Origin: Polycladomyces abyssicola
GTDB taxonomy: Bacteria > Bacillota > Bacilli > Thermoactinomycetales > JIR-001
Direction: 5' to 3'
Assembly: GCF_018326425.1 (NCBI RefSeq)
Contig: NZ_AP024601.1
Location: forward strand, 1,352,001-1,416,000
Length of the DNA: 64,000 nt
In this document: positions 3,034 to 43,580 of the stretch, piece after piece
Layout of the letters: the number at the start of each line of letters is the position of its first letter
How positions within the stretch are numbered: position 1 is the first letter of the stretch
Translations under genes and position numbers: made by a program
Notes under the pieces: generated by a model
Seen by the model: the letters and a program-made list of their open reading frames with translations, nothing else
Database searches by the model: none
What the model was told of the DNA's origin: nothing

Positions 3034-3588
3034 ATGCATTTTCATCAACAGAAAATCCTGCCTGCTGCCAAAAGCATCAAGGATTTTGAAGCACTAATGG
3101 ACAGTACGTATCAATACATCATCCTGCTGGACTGTCATGTTGCACAATTGAAAGCGTTGATCCAATTGGCCAACCGCCACAGCAAAAAAGTATTGCTCCA
3201 TGTCGATCTGATCCAAGGACTCAGAAACGATGAACATGCCGCTGAATTTCTGTGTCAGCAAATTAAGCCCGCAGGGTTGATTTCGACCCGAACTCAGGTA
3301 GTGCACGTGGCGAAGAAAAAGAAACTGATCGGCATCCAGCGGATTTTCCTGCTGGATACCCATGCGTTGGAAACCAGTTACCGTCTGTTGGAGACGTCTC
3401 GTCCGGATTATATCGAAGTGCTACCCGGAATTATCCCACACATGATCCGGGAAGTTCATGAACGAACCGGGATTCCGGTGTTGGCGGGTGGTTTGATCCG
3501 TACACCCGAAGAAGTAGAACAAGCCCTCTACGCGGGTGCCGTCGCTGTGACTACCTCCAATCGTTCTCTCTGGAAACTGCGCTCATAA
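3034..3588 (+). CDS. glpP: glycerol operon antiterminator GlpP
   Basis: A 184-residue TIM-barrel RNA-binding regulator. With glycerol 3-phosphate bound, proteins of this family prevent termination in glp leaders. Recognisable segments are LLHVDLIQGL, CQQIKPAGLISTR, LLDTHALE, DYIEVLPGIIPHMI and the C-terminal AVTTSNRSLWKL. I chose ATG 3034, which follows GGGAGGAGG and matches the usual N terminus; an in-frame start at 2956 would add 26 unlike residues. The likely target is the hairpin at 1205-1251. Confidence 0.95.
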   Translation: MHFHQQKILPAAKSIKDFEALMDSTYQYIILLDCHVAQLKALIQLANRHSKKVLLHVDLIQGLRNDEHAAEFLCQQIKPAGLISTRTQVVHVAKKKKLIGIQRIFLLDTHALETSYRLLETSRPDYIEVLPGIIPHMIREVHERTGIPVLAGGLIRTPEEVEQALYAGAVAVTTSNRSLWKLRS

Positions 3589-3627
3589 AATCGAAAACGA
3601 AAAGCGTCCCGTCAAAACGGGGGTGTG

Positions 3628-3664
3628 AGACTGCTGACCAGGTAGCAGGGCAGCAGTCTTTTTA
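3628..3664 (+). terminator. terminator after glpP
   Basis: AGACTGCTG (3628-3636) pairs with CAGCAGTCT (3651-3659) and is followed by TTTTT. It closes the glycerol block. The rest of the gap to 3931 shows no gene or clear signal. Confidence 0.85.
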
Positions 3665-3931
3665 TGTCGAAATAAAAAGATACCATCAAAGGAAAAAAGC
3701 GGAATCGACCAACAGGAGCGGTGGATTGCATCAGAATATAACAGCAGATCTGACAATGCGACTTTCCTGAGTTCAATGGGCATACGATTGAGGCAAGGGA
3801 TTGTCTCATGTGTGCCAGGTGGCAAATCAACAGGATGTGTCCGGATCCAGTGGGTAAATAGCGATTTCTGTCTCATTTAAGGACGTGATGTGAGATTTGT
3901 CTGAGTCAAGTCATAGAAGAGGTGAACTGAT

Positions 3932-4702
3932 TTGAGACTGCAAAACAAAGTGGCTCTGATTACCGGGGCGGGCTCCGGAATTGGGAAAAGCACGGCGTTG
4001 TTGTTTACACGGGAAGGCGCCAAGGTGATTGTCAATGATGTTGCTGAGCATGGCGCTGAGACAGTGGCAGCAATTCGCCGGCAGGGTGGAGAGGCGATTT
4101 TTGTCCGGGCAGATGTGACGCGGGCGTCTGAAGTGGAAGACATGGTGCAACAGGTGCTGGCTCAATATGGGCAGATTGATGTCCTGTTTAACAATGCGGG
4201 GATTTCCGGGGTCGGGGCACTGCATGAGACGAGCGAAGAACAGTGGGATCGGGTCGTGAACGTCAACATCAAAGGCGTATTTTTGCCAAGTAAGTATGTG
4301 ATTCCTCATATGATGGAACGCAAGCAAGGCGCGATCATCAACATGTCTTCCTGCATCGCGGAAATCGGACTGATGCGTAGGGCAGTCTATTCCGCCACGA
4401 AAGGAGCGGTGCTGGCGCTGACCAAGTCGATGCAGGTTGACTATGCCCCGTACAATATCCGGGTAAACGCGTTACTTCCGGGTACGATTCTAACTCCGTT
4501 TGTGGAAAATTACCTGCGTACGTCATACGACAATCCGGAAGAAGCGTTACATACCATTCGCCAAAGACAGTTAAGCGGAGACTTGGGACGACCTGAAGAT
4601 GCTGCGAAAGCAGCTTTGTTCCTCGCATCCGATGAATCGAAGTTTATGATGGGCTCACCGCTTTATGTCGACGGCGGCGTCACGTTTGGAAAAATGGCGT
4701 AA
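3932..4702 (+). CDS. short-chain dehydrogenase/reductase (SDR)
   Basis: A classical SDR of 256 residues. It has the cofactor motif TGAGSGIG near the N terminus, NNAG at the fold centre, a conserved NMSS serine and the catalytic YSATKGA (YxxxK), and it ends in the typical YVDGGVTFG. The start is TTG with AGAGGTGA upstream. It forms a two-gene unit with the FAH-family hydrolase 24 bases downstream. In the L-rhamnonate diketo-hydrolase pathway an SDR oxidises a 2-keto-3-deoxy acid at C4 and an FAH protein cleaves the product, so that role is a reasonable inference here. The substrate is not shown by sequence alone. Confidence 0.9.
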   Translation: MRLQNKVALITGAGSGIGKSTALLFTREGAKVIVNDVAEHGAETVAAIRRQGGEAIFVRADVTRASEVEDMVQQVLAQYGQIDVLFNNAGISGVGALHETSEEQWDRVVNVNIKGVFLPSKYVIPHMMERKQGAIINMSSCIAEIGLMRRAVYSATKGAVLALTKSMQVDYAPYNIRVNALLPGTILTPFVENYLRTSYDNPEEALHTIRQRQLSGDLGRPEDAAKAALFLASDESKFMMGSPLYVDGGVTFGKMA

Positions 4703-4726
4703 ACCAATTCAGGGGAGGTTTTTCCA

Positions 4727-5587
4727 TTGAAACTGTTGACATTTCGGACAGAAGACGGTTTGCAATCAGGAGTTCTCACAGAAAAAGGGGTTTTACAGAT
4801 CCCTGTCACGATCGAACAGGTGCTGAATGGCGGTTCGGAAGCGTTAGTTGATCTCGCAACCTATGTCAAGCAGGCGCTGGAAAAAGAAAGCGATCACCAG
4901 TTTCTGAAAGAAGAAGAATTGCAATTCGGGCCTTGTCTACCGAATCTGGGAAAAATCATCTGTGTCGGTCTCAACTACCGCAAACATGCGGAAGAGTCGA
5001 ATATGCCGATCCCTGAATACCCCATCTTGTTTAACAAGTTTCATAATACGATTGCCGCCCACCAGGATGTCATCCTGTTACCGTTTCATGCACAACAGGT
5101 GGACTATGAGGCAGAATTGGGCATCGTCATCGGCAAAACAGCAAAACGGGTAACAAAGGAAGAGGCGCTTACGTATGTGTTTGGATACTGTGCCGCAAAC
5201 GATTTGTCAGCTCGCGATTTACAGTTCCGTACAAACCAATGGTTATTGGGGAAATGCTGTGACGGATTTTGTCCGGTCGGACCTTATCTGGTGACAGCCG
5301 ATGAAGTCGAGAATCCTAACGCTTTGGGAATTCGCACCTACGTGAACGGGGAAATCCGGCAAGATTCCAATACGGCCGATATGATATTCCATTGCGATGA
5401 ATTGGTCAGCTATATTTCCCAATACATGACGCTCCAACCAGGTGATATCATTCTGACGGGTACGCCGGAAGGCGTAATTTTCGGCTATCCAAAAGAACGA
5501 CAGGTCTGGCTGAAAGACGGGGATGAGTTAACAGTTGAAATCGATCAATTGGGACGTCTTACGAACAGGATGAAACAAGAGGTATAA
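4727..5587 (+). CDS. fumarylacetoacetate hydrolase (FAH) family protein
   Basis: A 286-residue FAH-fold enzyme with the family core VGLNYRKHAEE, metal-ligand motif DYEAELGIVIGK, the DLSARDLQ segment and LTGTPEGVIFGY. Such proteins hydrolyse or decarboxylate acylpyruvates and related diketo acids with a divalent metal. It is adjacent to an SDR, which suggests 2,4-diketo-3-deoxy-aldonate hydrolysis to pyruvate plus a hydroxyacid (inference). The start is TTG after GGGGAGG. It belongs to a different subfamily from the KdaD-like FAH protein at 20861. Confidence 0.9.
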   Translation: MKLLTFRTEDGLQSGVLTEKGVLQIPVTIEQVLNGGSEALVDLATYVKQALEKESDHQFLKEEELQFGPCLPNLGKIICVGLNYRKHAEESNMPIPEYPILFNKFHNTIAAHQDVILLPFHAQQVDYEAELGIVIGKTAKRVTKEEALTYVFGYCAANDLSARDLQFRTNQWLLGKCCDGFCPVGPYLVTADEVENPNALGIRTYVNGEIRQDSNTADMIFHCDELVSYISQYMTLQPGDIILTGTPEGVIFGYPKERQVWLKDGDELTVEIDQLGRLTNRMKQEV

Positions 5588-5659
5588 AAGGATGTAAGCC
5601 GGGATGAAATCGGTCGGCTACCGGCGGATTGATCCTCCTCGAGAGATTGTGAACTTTTA

Positions 5660-5688
5660 TTGACAACATGAACACGGTTTAGTAATAT
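5660..5688 (+). promoter_or_regulatory. sigma-A promoter of the MFS gene
   Basis: TTGACA at 5660-5665, exactly 17 bases, then TAATAT at 5683-5688. The same arrangement is kept in the second copy at 7327-7355. Transcription should start near 5695, giving a leader of about 255 bases. Confidence 0.85.
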
Positions 5689-5738
5689 GAATTTTGAAAA
5701 GAGATAAACTATAAAGATAAAATTGAATTTTACATTAT

Positions 5739-5767
5739 CAAACCACCGGTGATTCCCGGTTTTTTTG
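5739..5767 (+). terminator. terminator-like attenuator hairpin in leader copy 1
   Basis: ACCGG (5745-5749) can pair with CCGGT (5756-5760), followed by seven T, about 50 bases after the predicted transcription start. The equivalent element in copy 2 (7408-7434) pairs AAACCG with CGGTTT. Its place between promoter and gene suggests conditional termination. The stem is short, so it may be weak on its own. Confidence 0.5.
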
Positions 5768-5788
5768 AAAGCGCCAAATGAAAACTGG

Positions 5789-5805
5789 GTTTTACAGTGT
5801 AAAAC
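5789..5805 (+). promoter_or_regulatory. palindromic operator candidate in leader copy 1
   Basis: GTTTTACAGTGTAAAAC is a perfect 8-1-8 palindrome. Copy 2 has GTTTTACAATATAAAAC at 7457-7473. The size and symmetry fit a dimeric regulator; the IclR protein encoded at 20055 is the natural candidate, but this is inference. It lies about 95 bases downstream of the promoter start, which would imply a roadblock or a second, unseen promoter. Confidence 0.55.
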
Positions 5806-5952
5806 TCGATAGGAGTTGATCTTCGCGGAAGGTAGAAGTGACGAGAGAGTGGGACATCCAGATTCAAATGAATCCGGTTTCAAATATTCGCATCTAGCTG
5901 AAACGATAACAACTCAAAATCTAACTCATGCGTTTGGAAGGGAAATGATACG

Positions 5953-7257
5953 ATGAACCAAAGAACAAGAGTCAGATGGATCATAGCGCTGTTAATGTGG
6001 GCTGCCATTGCAATCAACTACTTGGACCGGACCATCCTCTCTGCTGCGGCGCCAACTCTGATGAAGGAATTTCACATTTCCCCTATAGAGATGGGTGTCG
6101 TGATGTCCGCCTTTTTCTGGACGTATATGCTTTTTCAGATACCGGCCGGTTGGTTTGCAGATCGGGTGGGGCAACGACTTTCACTTGGACTGGCAGTTAC
6201 CTGGTGGTCGATCGCCACTGCTTTGACGGTAGTGTGCCGGGGCGTTACATCGCTTGTTTTCGTCCGTGTTTTATTGGGGATTGGAGAATCGGGAGCTTAT
6301 CCGAGCAATGCTGGGGTTACGGCCAAATGGTTTCCCGACAAGGAACGGGCTCGGGTTTCCGCTATTTTTGACAGCGGTTCCAAAGTGGGGACGGCACTGG
6401 CGATGCCGCTGGTGGTGTGGATGCTAACCGCTTTTGGCTGGGAGACGCCGTTTATCGTTGCCGGATTAATCGGTTTGGTTTGGGTGGTTATATGGTGGGC
6501 ATATTACCGCGATCCTGAGAAACACAAATACGTCAATCAGGAAGAATTGAATTACATTCGTGAAGGACAGACGAAAAAAGAAGGCATTGACAATGTACAG
6601 CCCATGAAGTGGTACGAGCTGCTGAAATACCGCAACATCCAAGCCATGTGCGTCGGATTTTTCATGCTGAATTACGCCATCTACTTTTTCATAACTTGGT
6701 TCCCCACTTATCTGGTGGAAGAGCGCGGCATGCAGCTGATGAAAATGGGCTATGTCTCGATGATTCCCCCCTTGGCAGGCTTGGTGGCGGAATTGTTTGC
6801 CGGTTGGTTCTCAGACTATTTGTATATGAAAGGACTTTCGTTGACACTGGCCCGGAAGATCAACCTGGTCGGTGGTATGCTACTGGCAACCTCGATTGCG
6901 TTTGCGGGTTTGGTGGATTCCGCTGTCTGGTCGGTCGTTTTACTGTCGGTTTCCTATGCGGGTCTGACTTTTGCGGCGTGCGCGATCTGGTCGCTGCCAG
7001 GGGATGTGGCACCGCGCAACATGACATCAGTGGTGGGGGGGATACAAAACTGCGTCTCCAATATGGGGGGCATTCTTGGTCCGATCGTCACAGGATTCCT
7101 CATTTCCACCACTCATTCGTTTATTCCAGCACTGTTGGTATCAGGCGCAGCCACACTAATCGGAGCTTTGACGTATGCATTCTGGCTGGGCAAGATAGAG
7201 CCGATCAATCCCACCGGTCCGCATGTAAACCGTTTGTCTTCCACTGCGAAAGCATAA
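5953..7257 (+). CDS. MFS transporter, anion:cation symporter family (sugar-acid uptake)
   Basis: A 434-residue, 12-helix major facilitator protein. The N-terminal INYLDRTILSAAAPTL segment and PAGWFADRVGQR loop are typical of the ACS family (hexuronate, glucarate and galactonate permeases). It probably imports an aldonate, uronate or aldarate by proton symport. It is preceded by the duplicated promoter-leader and followed by the second copy of that leader, so it is likely transcribed on its own. A related MFS gene lies at 27053. The exact substrate is unknown. Confidence 0.92.
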   Translation: MNQRTRVRWIIALLMWAAIAINYLDRTILSAAAPTLMKEFHISPIEMGVVMSAFFWTYMLFQIPAGWFADRVGQRLSLGLAVTWWSIATALTVVCRGVTSLVFVRVLLGIGESGAYPSNAGVTAKWFPDKERARVSAIFDSGSKVGTALAMPLVVWMLTAFGWETPFIVAGLIGLVWVVIWWAYYRDPEKHKYVNQEELNYIREGQTKKEGIDNVQPMKWYELLKYRNIQAMCVGFFMLNYAIYFFITWFPTYLVEERGMQLMKMGYVSMIPPLAGLVAELFAGWFSDYLYMKGLSLTLARKINLVGGMLLATSIAFAGLVDSAVWSVVLLSVSYAGLTFAACAIWSLPGDVAPRNMTSVVGGIQNCVSNMGGILGPIVTGFLISTTHSFIPALLVSGAATLIGALTYAFWLGKIEPINPTGPHVNRLSSTAKA

Positions 7258-7326
7258 AATCGCTCGCAGGATTTCGAACCGAGGTTAACGGCGTATTGAA
7301 TCCCCTCTAGATATTGTGAACTTTTG

Positions 7327-7355
7327 TTGACAATATGAACGCGGTTTTGTAATAT
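7327..7355 (+). promoter_or_regulatory. sigma-A promoter of the TRAP operon
   Basis: TTGACA (7327-7332), 17 bases, TAATAT (7350-7355), identical in both hexamers and in spacing to the promoter at 5660. Confidence 0.85.
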
Positions 7356-7407
7356 GAATTTTTGAAAAAAGATATACTATAAAGATAAAATTGAATTTTA
7401 CATTATC

Positions 7408-7434
7408 AAACCGCCGGTTATTTCCGGTTTTTTT
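7408..7434 (+). terminator. terminator-like attenuator hairpin in leader copy 2
   Basis: AAACCG and CGGTTT flank a short loop and run into seven T, at the same position relative to the promoter as in copy 1. Confidence 0.5.
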
Positions 7435-7456
7435 GAATGGCCCAAATGAAAACTGG

Positions 7457-7473
7457 GTTTTACAATATAAAAC
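7457..7473 (+). promoter_or_regulatory. palindromic operator candidate in leader copy 2
   Basis: GTTTTACAATATAAAAC, with one mismatched pair relative to the perfect palindrome at 5789. Its conservation inside the duplicated leader argues for function. Confidence 0.5.
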
Positions 7474-7588
7474 TCAATCTGGGTTCATCTTCGCGGAGAT
7501 GGAGGTGACGAAAGAAGGGGATTCCAATTCCGAATGAATCCGTTTTCAAAAAAATAGCAAACTCGGCAATCTGTCAATGGGGGTTACA

Positions 7589-8609
7589 ATGATGAAAAAG
7601 GGGATTGCCATACTTTCTAGCCTTGTATTGGCAACATCCGTTTTTGCTGCAGGATGCGGCAGCAAAATATCCTCTTCGGAAGCCAAAGCGTACACGATCA
7701 AGGTGGCCAACTATTTTGCCGAAAACCATCCGCAAAACATCGCTCTCCGGGAAAAGTTTAAGCCGATGGTCGAGAAAAACTCGAACGGCACTCTAAAGGT
7801 CGAGATCTATGAAAACAGCAAGCTGGGAGCTGAAAAGGAATTCTACGACGGCGTGCGAAACGGCATGATCGAAATGGGAATTCCCGGCATGATCATGCAG
7901 GCTGACATTCCGAAGATGGCCATTCCGGAACTCCCCTTTCTGTTTAAAGACTGGAAACATGCCAAGAGCGTGTTGACCGGTCCTTTGGGTAAAGAAATTG
8001 CGGCAGACGTAGAAGCGAAACACGGCGTAAAGGTTCTGGCTTGGAGCGCCAATGGGTTCCGGATGGTGTCCAGTAACAGGCCAATTGTCAAAATGGAGGA
8101 TTTTCATGGATTCCGTCTTCGGATGCCGAACATTCCCAACTATATCGCCCTCGGCAAATCGTGGGGAGCGAATATAACGCCGCTGCCGATCTCGGAAGTC
8201 TTCACCGCTCTGGAACAAAAAGTGGTGGAGGGACAGGAAAATCCGATTGCAACCCTGCGCGCCTCGGGATGGTATGAAGTGCAAAAGTACGTCCTCGAAT
8301 CCCGTCACATGTTCAGCCCGAATGTGTATATCATCAACAGTAATTTTTGGAATAAACTGACGCGCGAGCAGCAAAAAGCGGTGGAAGAAGCGGCAAAAGC
8401 AGCAGCCGACTATGAGTGGGAACTGCTTGAGCAGAGCGGAAGCGGCCAACAAGAAATGGCTACAAGACAAAGGATTACAGTTTACCAGTCCGGACGATCA
8501 ATTCAAGAAACAGATGTCTCATGCAGCGCAACCGATTTATGAGGAGTTTTACAAGAGAAATCCCTCTTTGAAAGAACTAGTCGAGAAGATCAAGTCCGGA
8601 GCAAAGTAA
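7589..8609 (+). pseudogene. TRAP substrate-binding protein DctP, frameshifted near 8438
   Basis: Extracytoplasmic solute receptor of a TRAP transporter, made as a lipoprotein: a signal peptide runs to a lipobox ending AAGC at about residue 20. The frame stays DctP-like up to ...LLEQS. It continues only in the +1 frame as EAANKKWLQDKG to the end at 8609. One extra G in the GG at 8438-8439 explains it; removing it restores about 339 residues. As read, the protein would end at 8542 with an unrelated tail. It could be a true mutation or a sequence error, since the partner genes dctQ and dctM are intact. The start was chosen at ATG 7589 (7592 also possible) after GGGGG. Confidence 0.85.
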
Positions 8610-8624
8610 CAGGAGGAACATTTG

Positions 8625-9155
8625 ATGCGAGCAATTTCCAAATTAATAACAAAATTTTTAAATTTCGTGATTGTCTTTTGTCTGGGGACAATGTCGATTC
8701 TGGTTTTCACAAACGTTGTGTTGCGCTACGGTTTCAACTCCGGCATTACCTGGTCAGAAGAGATGGCGCGCTTCCTGTTTATCTGGTTGACATTTTTGGG
8801 CGGTATCGCTGCTTTGAAAGATAACGAGCATTTGGGAGTCGACACACTGATCAAAAGACTGCCGCGAAGTCTGAAAAAGCTGGCGTATATCCTCAGTAAT
8901 TTGATTATGTTGTGGGTCATGTACCTCGTGCTCGATGGTAGCTTGAAAATGACTGAATTGAATATCGACAGCAAGGCCCCGGCTACTGGATTGCCCCTCG
9001 CGTTTATTTATGGAATCGGGGTCGTTGTAGGCGTTTGTATGGGTGTCATCATCCTCATCAATTTGTATCGTGTGATATTCAATAAAACGACAGATGCAGA
9101 TTTGATTATGACACGCGAGTCGGAAGACGAATTGCTGGAATCAACGGGCCGGTAG
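8625..9155 (+). CDS. TRAP transporter small permease DctQ
   Basis: A 176-residue, four-helix small membrane subunit. The segment FNSGITWSEEMARFLFIWLTF is characteristic of DctQ, followed by KDNEHLGVDTL. It works with DctM (9178) and a periplasmic-type binding protein to import a carboxylate using a sodium gradient. The start at ATG 8625 lies 8 bases after AGGAGG; a TTG at 8622 is possible. Confidence 0.93.
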   Translation: MRAISKLITKFLNFVIVFCLGTMSILVFTNVVLRYGFNSGITWSEEMARFLFIWLTFLGGIAALKDNEHLGVDTLIKRLPRSLKKLAYILSNLIMLWVMYLVLDGSLKMTELNIDSKAPATGLPLAFIYGIGVVVGVCMGVIILINLYRVIFNKTTDADLIMTRESEDELLESTGR

Positions 9156-9177
9156 CGGACACATTGGGGGGAAGAGC

Positions 9178-10461
9178 ATGGTATTGACAACTTTTGTATT
9201 GTCGCTGCTGGGGGCCATGGCGCTTGGGGTACCCATTGCAATCGCGCTTTTATTTTGTGGCGTCTGTCTCATGATTGTGATGGGAAACTTCGACAGTCAA
9301 ATCATTGCGCAAAACCTGATAAACGGAGCGGACAACTTTCCGCTGATGGCTATTCCGTTTTTCATTCTTGCCGGGGAATTCATGAATGCAGGGGGAATTT
9401 CGAAACGGATCGTTAATTTCGCTATGGCACTGGTCGGCCATATCAAGGGTGGACTTGGATATGTGGCCATTATTGGCAGTGTGATTTTTGCCGGTCTTTC
9501 CGGTTCTGCTGTTGCCGATACCGCTGCGCTGGGCGCACTCTTGATTCCGATGATGAGAGATGCGGGTTATGCCACGAACAGATCTGCAGGTTTACTTGCT
9601 GCAGGAGGAATTATTGCTCCGATTATTCCGCCAAGCATTCCGATGATTTTGTTCGGGGTGGCGGCTAACGTCTCCATTACCAAGTTGTTTATGGCTGGAA
9701 TTGTACCCGGGCTGTTGATCGGCCTGGCGTTGGTTACTACTTGGTGGTGGGTCGTGAGAAAAGATGACCTTCAGGTGCAACCACGCAAATCGGTGAAAGA
9801 GATATGGATTGCCACACGTAAAGCGTTTTGGGCATTGATTTTACCGATCTTGATTATCGCCGGTTTGCGCGGGGGCGTGTTCACCCCGACAGAAGCAGCC
9901 GTTGTCGCCGCTTTCTATGCGTTTTTTGTCGGGATACTGATTTATCGCGAATTGAAAATCAAGGATTTGTACCGGGTGTTATTGCAGGCCGGAAAAACCA
10001 CCAGTGTCGTCATGTTTCTGGCAGCCGCAGCGATGGTGTCCGCTTGGTTGACCACTGTAGCGAATATTCCGAATGAAGTCACGACCTTATTGGGGCCGTT
10101 GATCGACCATCCGATCCTGCTGATGATTGCGATTAACATCATCGTTTTGATTGTCGGTACCGCCGTCGACCTGACGCCAACTGTCCTGATCCTGACCCCG
10201 GTGCTCATGCCGATCATCCAGAAAGCAGGAATCGATCCGATCTATTTTGGCGTGATTTTTATCCTGAACAACTGTATCGGATTGCTGACGCCACCCGTCG
10301 GCACGGTACTGAATGTCGCTTGCGGCATAGCGCGAATCGCGATGGACGACATCATGAAAGGAGTCTGGCCGTTTTTGTTGGTGGAATGTCTTGTTCTGTT
10401 GATACTCACTCTTTTCCCGGATCTCACATTGGTTCCGTTGCATTGGTTCTATGACAAATAG
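9178..10461 (+). CDS. TRAP transporter large permease DctM
   Basis: A 427-residue membrane protein with about 12 helices and DctM signatures: PLMAIPFFILAGEFMNAGGI, GLSGSAVADTAALG, and IIPPSIPMILFG. It forms the sodium-driven translocation channel with DctQ. It follows dctQ by 22 bases in the operon begun by the promoter at 7327. Confidence 0.95.
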   Translation: MVLTTFVLSLLGAMALGVPIAIALLFCGVCLMIVMGNFDSQIIAQNLINGADNFPLMAIPFFILAGEFMNAGGISKRIVNFAMALVGHIKGGLGYVAIIGSVIFAGLSGSAVADTAALGALLIPMMRDAGYATNRSAGLLAAGGIIAPIIPPSIPMILFGVAANVSITKLFMAGIVPGLLIGLALVTTWWWVVRKDDLQVQPRKSVKEIWIATRKAFWALILPILIIAGLRGGVFTPTEAAVVAAFYAFFVGILIYRELKIKDLYRVLLQAGKTTSVVMFLAAAAMVSAWLTTVANIPNEVTTLLGPLIDHPILLMIAINIIVLIVGTAVDLTPTVLILTPVLMPIIQKAGIDPIYFGVIFILNNCIGLLTPPVGTVLNVACGIARIAMDDIMKGVWPFLLVECLVLLILTLFPDLTLVPLHWFYDK

Positions 10462-19401: not shown

Positions 19402-20049
19402 GTGATTCAAAAAATGTTTCTGATACAAAAATTGACGGAAAGTGGTGTCATTGCAGTAATCCGGCGGTTGCCGGAGGCTTCTGTTGAAAAGGTGGCGGAA
19501 AGTCTGGTGGCTGGCGGCATCACTGCGCTGGAAGTGACGGTGGACAGCCCGGGTGCATTTACTGTCATCCGCAAACTGGCTGAAAAGTTCAAAGATCATG
19601 CGATTGTCGGCGCGGGGACGGTACTGGACGCCGAATCAGCGCGGCTTGCCATTGACAGCGGCGCGGAATTTCTGCTAAGCCCCAGTCTCCACCGGGATGT
19701 GATCCAAACGGCTCTCCGCTACGGAAAAATTGCAGTGCCGGGTGTGCTGACCCCGACTGAAATGATTACTGCGGTGGAGTGGGGGGCAGACCTGGTGAAA
19801 CTATTCCCCGCATCGGTTATGGGAGCCCAATATATGAAGGAGATAAAAGCGCCGTTTCCGCACATTCCAGTGATTCCGACGGGCGGGATTCACCTCGATA
19901 ACCTGACCTCCTTCATTAAGGCGGGCGCTGCTGCTGTCGGGATCGGCGGAAATCTATTGGATCGCAAGGTAATCGAAGCGGGCGACTTTTCAACAATCAC
20001 GGCCATTGCAAGGCGATACGTAACTGCTGTGCAGCAGGCCAGGGGGTGA
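19402..20049 (+). CDS. eda: KDPG/KHG aldolase
   Basis: A 215-residue class I aldolase that splits 2-keto-3-deoxy-6-phosphogluconate into pyruvate and glyceraldehyde 3-phosphate. It shows SGVIAVIRR, ALEVTVDSPGA with the catalytic Glu, GAGTVLDAESA, the Schiff-base Lys in LVKLFPAS, and IPTGGI. GTG 19402 lies after GGAGAGGTGA; GTG 19390 is inside that ribosome-binding site. It completes the Entner-Doudoroff-type branch begun by kdgK. Confidence 0.95.
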   Translation: MIQKMFLIQKLTESGVIAVIRRLPEASVEKVAESLVAGGITALEVTVDSPGAFTVIRKLAEKFKDHAIVGAGTVLDAESARLAIDSGAEFLLSPSLHRDVIQTALRYGKIAVPGVLTPTEMITAVEWGADLVKLFPASVMGAQYMKEIKAPFPHIPVIPTGGIHLDNLTSFIKAGAAAVGIGGNLLDRKVIEAGDFSTITAIARRYVTAVQQARG

Positions 20050-20054
20050 GAGGG

Positions 20055-20840
20055 TTGCCAATCATTCAAGCTGTTGACCGTGCCCTCCGGATTCTCGATT
20101 TGTTTGATGAACACAATACCGAACTGAAAATTACCGACATCAGCGACCGCATGGGACTGCACAAAAGCACGGTCCACTCGCTGCTAAAAACGCTGAAGGC
20201 GCATGGTTACATCGAGCAGAATCCGGAAAACGGCAAATACAAGCTGGGTCTCAAACTGGTAGAACGGGGCAATTTTGTGCTGAATTCGCTGGATATCCGT
20301 ACGATCGCCAAGCGGCATCTGATTGATTTGTCGCATAAAACCGGGTTGACTGTACACTTGGTCATCCTTGACGGAAAAGAAGGCGTGTATATCGATAAAG
20401 TGGAGGGTACCTCCGGGATTGTCATGTACTCGCGGATCGGCAGGCGGGTGCCGATTCATTCCAGCGCCGTCGGAAAAGTGCTGGTGGCGTTTCAGAGTCA
20501 GGAGGTGATACAGAAAATTCTAGATGGATATGATTATGTGCCGCATACTTCCAATACCATCACCAATGAGCAGGATTTTCTGAAGGAACTGGAAAAAGTA
20601 CGAAAGTTGGGATTTGCGATCGACAATCAGGAAAACGAGCCGGGTGTACAGTGTGTGGCCGTGCCGGTTCGCGATCACCTTGGCCAGGTGGTGGCTGCCA
20701 TAAGCATGTCTTCTCCGATTGCGGGGATTCAGGAAGAAACGTTGGAAAATATGATTGTCCTGTTAAAACAGACAGCAGATGAAGTGTCCCAACAATTGGG
20801 ATATGGTATTCATCAACAAAAACTCGGTTTGACAATATAA
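20055..20840 (+). CDS. IclR-family transcriptional regulator
   Basis: A 261-residue regulator with an N-terminal winged helix (ALRILDLFDEHN, ISDRMGLHKSTVHSLLKTL, residues about 8-60) and an IclR effector domain (GRRVPIHSSAVGKVLVAF, PGVQCVAVPVRDHLGQVVAA). Family members such as KdgR respond to 2-keto-3-deoxygluconate or related acids. TTG 20055 is preferred because the GGGGGTGAGAGG before it serves as ribosome-binding site. The palindromes at 5789 and 7457 are candidate operators. Confidence 0.93.
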   Translation: MPIIQAVDRALRILDLFDEHNTELKITDISDRMGLHKSTVHSLLKTLKAHGYIEQNPENGKYKLGLKLVERGNFVLNSLDIRTIAKRHLIDLSHKTGLTVHLVILDGKEGVYIDKVEGTSGIVMYSRIGRRVPIHSSAVGKVLVAFQSQEVIQKILDGYDYVPHTSNTITNEQDFLKELEKVRKLGFAIDNQENEPGVQCVAVPVRDHLGQVVAAISMSSPIAGIQEETLENMIVLLKQTADEVSQQLGYGIHQQKLGLTI

Positions 20841-20843
20841 AAT
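20826..20843 (+). promoter_or_regulatory. possible third operator, upstream of kdaD-like gene
   Basis: GGTTTGACAATATAAAAT resembles the palindrome of leader copy 2 (GGTTTTACAATATAAAAC) at all but two positions. It lies at the IclR 3' end, 18 bases before the next gene. Low confidence because part of it is coding sequence. Confidence 0.3.
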
Positions 20844-42956: not shown

Positions 42957-42986
42957 TTGTCGGTCATCAGCGGATTATGTTATAAT
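42957..42986 (+). promoter_or_regulatory. promoter of the OLE RNA
   Basis: TTGTCG (42957-42962), 18 bases, and a consensus TATAAT (42981-42986). Transcription would begin near 42993, just before the first closing helix of the RNA. Confidence 0.75.
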
Positions 42987-42992
42987 GGCCGT

Positions 42993-43580
42993 AAAACAGG
43001 AGTGGTGCAGTATTCTAGTCAGCCCACCTCCCCTGAAGGCGGGGCTAAAAATCCGCTAAAGGGCACATCGATGAAGTTCCTGGTGTTGGCTTTCGACGCC
43101 CAGTCGGGGGTTGATGCTGGGAGTTAAGGTTGAAGGGCGATCCACAAAGGCATGTGGGCGTTGACCCTTCTTCCGCGGAGGCCCAAGTGCGTGGCTCAAC
43201 CGAAAGGAAGAGCGACGGCTTGGGGGATGAACCTACATGCGGGCACAACCACCTGTATGTAGCGTAGCCTGCCTTGAGTGACGTGCCGGGGATACGGCGT
43301 TTTGCCACCGCCGTTGAAAGGTGCGTTGCAAAAGAGGCTAGGGGGACGGCTCGGGCTGTTGAGGAAAACTCCTAGACTGTTTGCGGGATCGCAAGGCTAC
43401 CCGGGGATTGAAGTGCGGACTAAGTGGCAATCCAGTCCGGCGATTGGCGACAACGCCGAAAAAGGTTGAAAGGGAAACCACCTGGTCGGCGACGACCGGG
43501 ATACCTTTTTGGGAAATCCTACTGGACCTAAGCCGCAGGATTTACCCGGGTAGTCACCACTCCTTAGGCACTTTTTTGTT
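42993..43580 (+). ncRNA. ole: OLE RNA (ornate, large, extremophilic)
   Basis: A non-coding block of about 590 bases between ispA and oapA/dxs, the known genomic position of OLE RNA in Bacillus halodurans and relatives. The ends close into a perfect 10-base helix, AGGAGTGGTG (42998-43007) with CACCACTCCT (43555-43564). The interior is GC-rich and unsuitable for coding. A TATAAT promoter precedes it and TTTTTT (43572-43577) ends it. OLE forms a ribonucleoprotein with OapA at the membrane and is linked to alcohol and cold stress and to metabolic adaptation. Identification rests on position, size, closing stem and the oapA neighbour. Confidence 0.88.

Follow-up and report, generated by a model that had tools for sequence, protein, structure and literature searches.

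Gene cluster and duplicated leader sequences

The window (the whole 64-kb stretch of DNA analysed here) contains a gene cluster in the following order: SDR, FAH-family hydrolase, leader 1, MFS carrier, leader 2, TRAP transporter (dctP-dctQ-dctM), 2-hydroxyacid dehydrogenase, a second dctP, nickel-pincer isomerase, galactonate dehydratase, IlvD/Edd-type dehydratase, U32-type protein, KDG-kinase-like protein, KDPG/KHG aldolase, IclR-family regulator, FAH2 (the fumarylacetoacetate-hydrolase-family hydrolase directly behind iclR), galactarate-dehydratase-like protein, and ketoglutaric semialdehyde dehydrogenase. All genes from dctP to FAH2 are on one strand with intergenic gaps of -26 to 79 bases, and this close spacing suggests that iclR, which is located 12-14 kb downstream of the leaders, probably belongs to the leader 2 operon. 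The dctP gene of the TRAP operon is apparently frameshifted near its 3' end (8421-8608), with a stop of the frame at 8542 and a family-like C-terminus in another frame; either a sequencing error or a real break is possible.

Pairwise alignment revealed that the two leader copies were alignable over ~5638-5885 and ~7305-7550. A search of the leader against its own genome gave 85% identity over 251 bases (E 2.1e-75), and no third copy was found there, the three remaining hits reaching only E 0.48-0.90. Outside the leader, the identity between the copies was 51% immediately upstream and 35% immediately downstream. These results bear out a duplicated promoter-leader in front of the MFS and TRAP genes, which an earlier note on this DNA had proposed, and its TTGACA-17-TAATAT promoter was present in both copies with identical hexamers (Table 1). 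The operators (described below) and the promoter hexamers together differed between the copies at 2 of 66 columns, against 35 of 183 in the rest of 5638-5885 (p 0.001); when the operators alone were compared with the remainder of 5638-5805, the differences were 2/54 and 15/103, respectively (p 0.056).

Table 1. Positions of the leader elements, the genes behind them, and the putative regulator in the window
Feature	Position	Strand	Remarks
Copy 1 promoter, TTGACA-17-TAATAT	5660..5688	+	10/12 consensus match; hexamers unchanged between copies
Copy 1 operator O1, ATAAAAT-TGA-ATTTTAC-ATT-ATCAAAC	5717..5743	+	24.2 bits, rank 3 in the window; 0/27 differences between copies
Copy 1 terminator-like hairpin and T-run, between O1 and O2	5745..5766	+	-6.9 kcal/mol; T-run ends 12 nt before O2
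Copy 1 operator O2, TGAAAAC-TGG-GTTTTAC-AGT-GTAAAAC, including the 17-base palindrome	5779..5805	+	23.7 bits; exact match to the strict pattern
Copy 1 degenerate CcpA (cre)-like site, ATGAATCCGGTTTCAA	5868..5883	+	1 mismatch to TGNNANCGNTNNCA; 1/50 shuffles as good
MFS transporter, D-galactonate transporter-like; presumed target of copy 1	5953..7257	+	TIGR00893, E 4e-103, 345 bits, below the cut-off of 395
Copy 2 promoter, TTGACA-17-TAATAT	7327..7355	+	Pattern scan
Copy 2 operator O1	7385..7411	+	21.4 bits
Copy 2 terminator-like hairpin and T-run	7413..7434	+	-7.8 kcal/mol; T-run ends 12 nt before O2
Copy 2 operator O2, TGAAAAC-TGG-GTTTTAC-AAT-ATAAAAC	7447..7473	+	36.9 bits, best in the window; exact match to the strict pattern
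Copy 2 degenerate CcpA (cre)-like site, ATGAATCCGTTTTCAA	7534..7549	+	1 mismatch to TGNNANCGNTNNCA; 5/50 shuffles as good
TRAP transporter dctP-dctQ-dctM, first genes behind copy 2	7577..10461	+	TIGR00787 and TIGR00786 above cut-offs; NF007374 below
IclR-family regulator, KdgR-like; predicted operator binder	20046..20840	+	PF01614, E 1.9e-56; PF09339, E 7.6e-20
Further operator overlapping the iclR stop, before the FAH2 gene	20817..20843	+	26.4 bits; 0/500 shuffles reach its box-consensus score

Predicted three-box operators

The 17-base palindrome of the earlier note is perfect in copy 1 (5789-5805), while one pair is broken in copy 2 (7457-7473). It falls within O2 and corresponds to one box pair of a longer element, in which GTAAAAC-like and GTTTTAC-like boxes alternate in 10-bp steps. 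Each leader contains two such 27-bp elements with three alternating boxes, O1 and O2, downstream of the promoter. The palindrome GTT-N11-AAC is found in O2 of both copies, and O1 matches it only roughly (ATT-N11-AAC).

A two-box scan of 32 sequence stretches gave 65 matches, compared with 17 in the reversed sequence. The 160 bases behind iclR were also searched at 31 loci, from 29 genomes, that carry a close orthologue of this gene: 18 had a three-box site there (no more than 2/200 shuffles as good); this number rose to 21 when up to 10/200 shuffles were allowed, and the other 10 had no site at p 0.05. A site model of 35 positions was trained on the sites behind iclR of 18 relatives without any window sequence; since the box consensus used to choose these sites was derived from the window and one relative (G009), the model is independent in sequences, not in design. 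When both strands of the 64-kb window were scored, the top five sites started at 7447, 20817, 5717, 5779, and 7385 (36.9, 26.4, 24.2, 23.7, and 21.4 bits, respectively), i.e., O1 and O2 of both leaders plus one site at the end of the iclR gene; the next scores were 15.8 and 14.4 bits. The 15.8-bit match (7334-7360, + strand) is a weak three-box match overlapping the copy 2 promoter, and is possibly a third operator. Outside the cluster, a single match to the operator model (18 bits) was observed (L062 position 1527; own genome near 1334204).

Sites consisting of three boxes of alternating direction are described for the IclR-family proteins PcaU, PobR, and HmgR in passages of Suvorova and Gelfand 2021 (PMC8222616), which also describe the GTT-N11-AAC type as over-represented in Firmicutes and often associated with sugar-acid genes or regulons. 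The alternating boxes and the central GTT-N11-AAC palindrome place the window sites among those of a known kind. On the other hand, the spacings described there for tandem sites are mostly 18-22 nt, and those of three and four turns are in excess too, though less so, whereas the two sites in each leader of the window are 62 bp apart.

The best NCBIfam model for the IclR protein was KdgR (NF011671). It shares with KdgR, an IclR-family protein of gamma-proteobacteria, the sequence family and a sugar-acid context containing KDG-kinase-like and KDPG-aldolase genes, but its score of 230.3 bits was below the curated equivalog cut-off (275). The KdgR motif given in passages of PMC8222616 is a single palindrome, RWWGAAACGNCGTTTCAKKA, unlike the three-box sites of the window.

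Co-occurrence of the operator with the IclR-family protein

The operator site co-occurs with the IclR-family gene and its orthologues. A strict three-box pattern (AAAC-N3-GTTTTAY-N2-TRTAAAAC) was found in 20 of 398 genomes of the class, and its backwards control in none. All 20 were among the 30 genomes (own included) with an IclR match of at least 60% identity, at most six candidates per genome having been scored, and none was among the other 368 (Fisher 1e-26); the IclR match of the next-best genome was 51% identical. Ten of these 30 genomes had no exact match to the strict pattern. Since the pattern was composed after sites in some of the same genomes had been viewed, the proportion of 20/30 is not independent, and the informative part is 0/368. 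In a phylum sample of 398 genomes, the strict pattern was detected in the own genome and in three further genomes outside the class (L153, L154, and L155), one of which (L154) has two sites 191 bp apart.

Operator pairs in relatives and probable history of the duplication

Of the 29 relatives that carry a close orthologue, 19 have an O1/O2 pair before transporter or catabolic genes; both sites point the same way as the gene behind them and are 60-147 bp apart, the pairs having been hand-picked from site lists (two of three sites were used in G052). The spacing in one relative (G011) is 62 bp, the same as in the window leaders. Ten relatives had no clear pair in the stretches examined, among them G033, G170, G219, G203, and G009 with one clear site, and family and order searches provided no additional genomes with operator pairs. 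The best promoter-like match ended 18-50 nt before O1 in 15 of the 19 relatives with a pair (raw count), and the position of the operators downstream of the promoter argues for repression. DNA looping between O1 and O2 was considered and rejected: the spacings of 60-147 bp have no common helical phase (by eye).

A BLASTN comparison of both leader copies with the relatives' loci assembled at that stage, an alignment that the earlier note had suggested as a check, gave operator matches of 23-34 bp and otherwise only short AT-rich matches. The operator was therefore the only non-trivial sequence found in common between the window leader and the paired-site leaders of relatives, and the view of the 240-base leader as a conserved unit was not upheld. 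No homologous leader was found in 60 relatives, where six genomes besides the own matched, each over only 25-42 AT-rich bases.

Among 21 MFS orthologue loci in named genomes, five contained a two-box match at the threshold (L098, L102, L106, L108, and L117), two of them operator-like (Paenibacillus sp. P25 and Thermoactinomyces daqus); none of these matches was located directly before the MFS gene. The MFS orthologue of G009 has a single three-box site upstream and no leader. In T. daqus (L106, apparently the same as G033), the SDR, FAH, MFS, and dehydrogenase genes are in the order of the window; there is no leader before the MFS gene, and one operator is located before the dehydrogenase gene, the position occupied by leader 2 and the TRAP genes in the window. 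This operator position and the single site of G009 suggest that leader 2 probably holds the older position and that leader 1 is the copy. The MFS orthologue of T. daqus (L014/L106) is apparently split over two frames.

Proposed regulation by the IclR-family protein

These observations make it quite probable that the leaders are repressor-controlled promoter regions, and that the IclR-family protein of the cluster binds O1 and O2 and represses both transporters; this assignment was made with IclR as the one regulator of the own genome considered, and with an O1-O2 spacing that varies among genomes. The repressor binding suggested in the earlier note is supported at the level of candidate sites, extended to two IclR-type operators per copy with the likely regulator encoded in the cluster itself, as is its regulatory cassette, which should place both carriers under one signal.

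The protein would bind beyond the promoter, at two 27-bp operators: O1 lies ~20 bp past the expected start of transcription, and O2 62 bp further. When bound, it may block either the start or the elongation of transcription, and ligand binding would turn on both transporters; our guess for the ligand is a 2-keto-3-deoxy sugar acid or its phosphate. Copy 1 would serve the MFS carrier, and copy 2 the TRAP operon, probably together with the catabolic genes and iclR, so that the duplication would place two carriers under one signal. By releasing polymerase that has stalled at O2, the weak terminator in front of this site may make the roadblock more effective, and the degenerate CcpA site may add catabolite control. 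Regulation by IclR would explain why the same leader is found on two unrelated transporters, and we propose a regulator, operators, and regulon for a sugar-acid cluster present in many genomes of the class.

Terminator-like hairpin between O1 and O2

The terminator-like hairpin of the earlier note was present in both copies, though weak. The stems are ACCGG/CCGGT in copy 1 (5745-5760; seven T at 5760-5766) and GCCGG/CCGGT in copy 2 (7413-7428; seven T at 7428-7434), and the single stem change between the copies keeps the pairing (A-T to G-T). A GC-rich stem of 5 pairs (4 GC) and a run of 7 T are features of an intrinsic terminator, a function that is predicted for this weak stem. The hairpin alone is not unusual: 11 terminator-like patterns were found in 3500-8600 (5.1 kb), compared with 5.6 in shuffles, and 28% of shuffled leaders held a hairpin at least as stable. 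For the 35-base spacer alone, the share of shuffles with one as stable was only 4% and 11%.

It appears to us evenly balanced whether the operators are the sole functional part, with the hairpin and the remaining sequence as neutral leftovers of the duplication or a weak obstacle to transcription reading in from upstream genes. Under a strict rule, the hairpin between O1 and O2 was found in 3 of 21 paired leaders (0.53 expected), two of which were the window copies, and its conservation between the copies was not significant (1/17 vs 34/166 hand-counted columns, p 0.20). A looser energy rule from O1 to the start codon gave terminators in 13 of 25 leaders, poor hairpins included (4.6 expected). 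Against this explanation, terminator-like hairpins are placed non-randomly before O2. The placement test sought a hairpin of -6 kcal/mol or better with a T-run whose end lay 8-15 nt before the site, in 25 leaders (the 21 paired leaders, G033, G170, G219, and the MFS site of G009) and in 200 shuffles. The combination preceded O2 in 8/25 leaders (shuffle mean 0.61) and, without the window, in 6/23 (G209, G160, G380, G372, G060, and G033; shuffle mean 0.55), with 0/200 shuffles as high in either case; the distance range had been picked post hoc, after T-runs ending 9-12 nt before O2 had been noticed in these sequences. The remaining distance bins before O2 contained 1, 1, 1, and 0 of 25 leaders, and the combination was found before O1 in 0/21 leaders.

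Such placement would suit a terminator timed by the roadblock, an addition to the IclR model that we regard as tentative and on balance unlikely: IclR bound to O2 would stall RNA polymerase over the T-run, the weak hairpin would then terminate transcription, and the polymerase would read through without IclR. O2 starts 12 nt after the T-run, so that in a polymerase halted by a protein on O2 the active centre would lie roughly at the T-run, provided that the front edge of the enzyme extends some 15-18 bp ahead. The enrichment before O2, the nearly empty other distance bins, the lack of the combination before O1, and the stem change that preserves the pair are all consistent with this mechanism. 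On the other side stand the 17 of 23 other leaders without the hairpin, the retrospective choice of the distance range, and the weakness of the window hairpin relative to shuffled leaders; furthermore, G380 and G372 share a genus, and the hairpin of G160 partly uses operator bases. A similar placement was also observed at 3/20 sites behind iclR (shuffle mean 0.29), where the hairpin may be a simple end of the iclR operon. Attenuation, as suggested in the earlier note, is therefore weakly supported: a weak hairpin exists in both copies and its O2-proximal placement exceeds shuffles in a minority of relatives, while most other leaders lack it.

If the roadblock-timed mechanism is true, O1-bound IclR would block the promoter region, and O2-bound IclR would convert an escaped polymerase into a terminated one. 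The switch would need neither an RNA ligand nor an antiterminator, would recur around a single IclR regulon in several of the class's lineages, and would offer a testable route by which a DNA-bound repressor turns on an intrinsic terminator. Repressor roadblocks are described for PurR, GalR, ArsR, CcpA, and CodY in passages of a review (PMC10310618), and passages of PMC4132739 deal with the LacI roadblock and the release of stalled polymerase by Mfd or Rho. The arrangement in the window resembles these in the (predicted) repressor position downstream of the promoter, in the path of the polymerase, and differs from what these passages describe in the intrinsic-terminator-like hairpin about where the polymerase would stall. 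No description of a duplicated two-site leader with a terminator before the second site was found among the papers listed from the open-licence literature on IclR operators or regulons, Bacillus IclR regulons, IclR attenuation, and roadblocks with intrinsic terminators, while the orthologue group may already stand in the supplement of PMC8222616. The window variant differs from the described sites in its two operators per leader 62 bp apart, their duplication before two unrelated carriers, and a terminator-like element before the second operator.

Less likely explanations: riboswitch, leader peptide, and mobile element

The earlier note had recognized no known riboswitch in the leader, and this was confirmed: at the Rfam gathering score, the leader was unmatched and the sole match in the 64-kb window was OLE RNA (Ornate Large Extremophilic RNA), a full-length match at 42986-43576 (+ strand, 515 bits). 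A T-box was rejected together with a riboswitch, on the lack of an Rfam match, of a folding signal, and of a homologous leader in relatives. A ligand-sensing RNA or novel riboswitch would fit the length of the leader, the terminator-like hairpin, and a possible pairing between arms of O1 and O2, but such alternative pairings arise because the operator boxes are inverted. The leader RNA folded no better than shuffles (z -0.91 and -0.79), no leader homologue beyond the operators was found outside the genome, the 60 relatives included, and the two copies carry too little variation for covariation. We found no sign of a ligand-binding RNA in the leader and consider this explanation highly improbable.

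A leader peptide was also tentatively set aside: two short frames, at 5778 (ATG) and near 5838 (GTG), start at corresponding positions in both copies, and their lengths and sequences differ (by eye). A small mobile or repeated element with no regulatory role, which the two copies with fairly sharp ends might suggest, is just as improbable as a riboswitch, because the genome has just two copies, both are directly before transporter genes, and both contain sites that relatives also have ahead of genes of the same kinds.

Terminal region and a candidate CcpA site

The terminal hairpin claimed in the earlier note is the least secure of its leader elements. It can be folded in both copies; its 5' arms are unalignable between them, and the shared piece is a 16-mer, ATGAATCCGKTTTCAA, which is common to 5868-5883 and 7534-7549 with one difference, amid a stretch otherwise ~75% identical. 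The consensus of the CcpA-binding site (cre) is WTGNNARCGNWWWCAW. The 16-mer has two mismatches to this consensus (by eye) and one to the core TGNNANCGNTNNCA (shuffle counts in Table 1), and may be a degenerate cre site. In 9 of 19 relatives, an exact match to the cre core was found in the operator pair or no more than 80 bases away from it. Sites resembling cre with 0 or 1 core mismatch were also observed between the two IclR operators in relatives (L121, L123, L124, L125, L130, and L132), and in G333, G380, and G372 they overlap the stem of a terminator-like hairpin.
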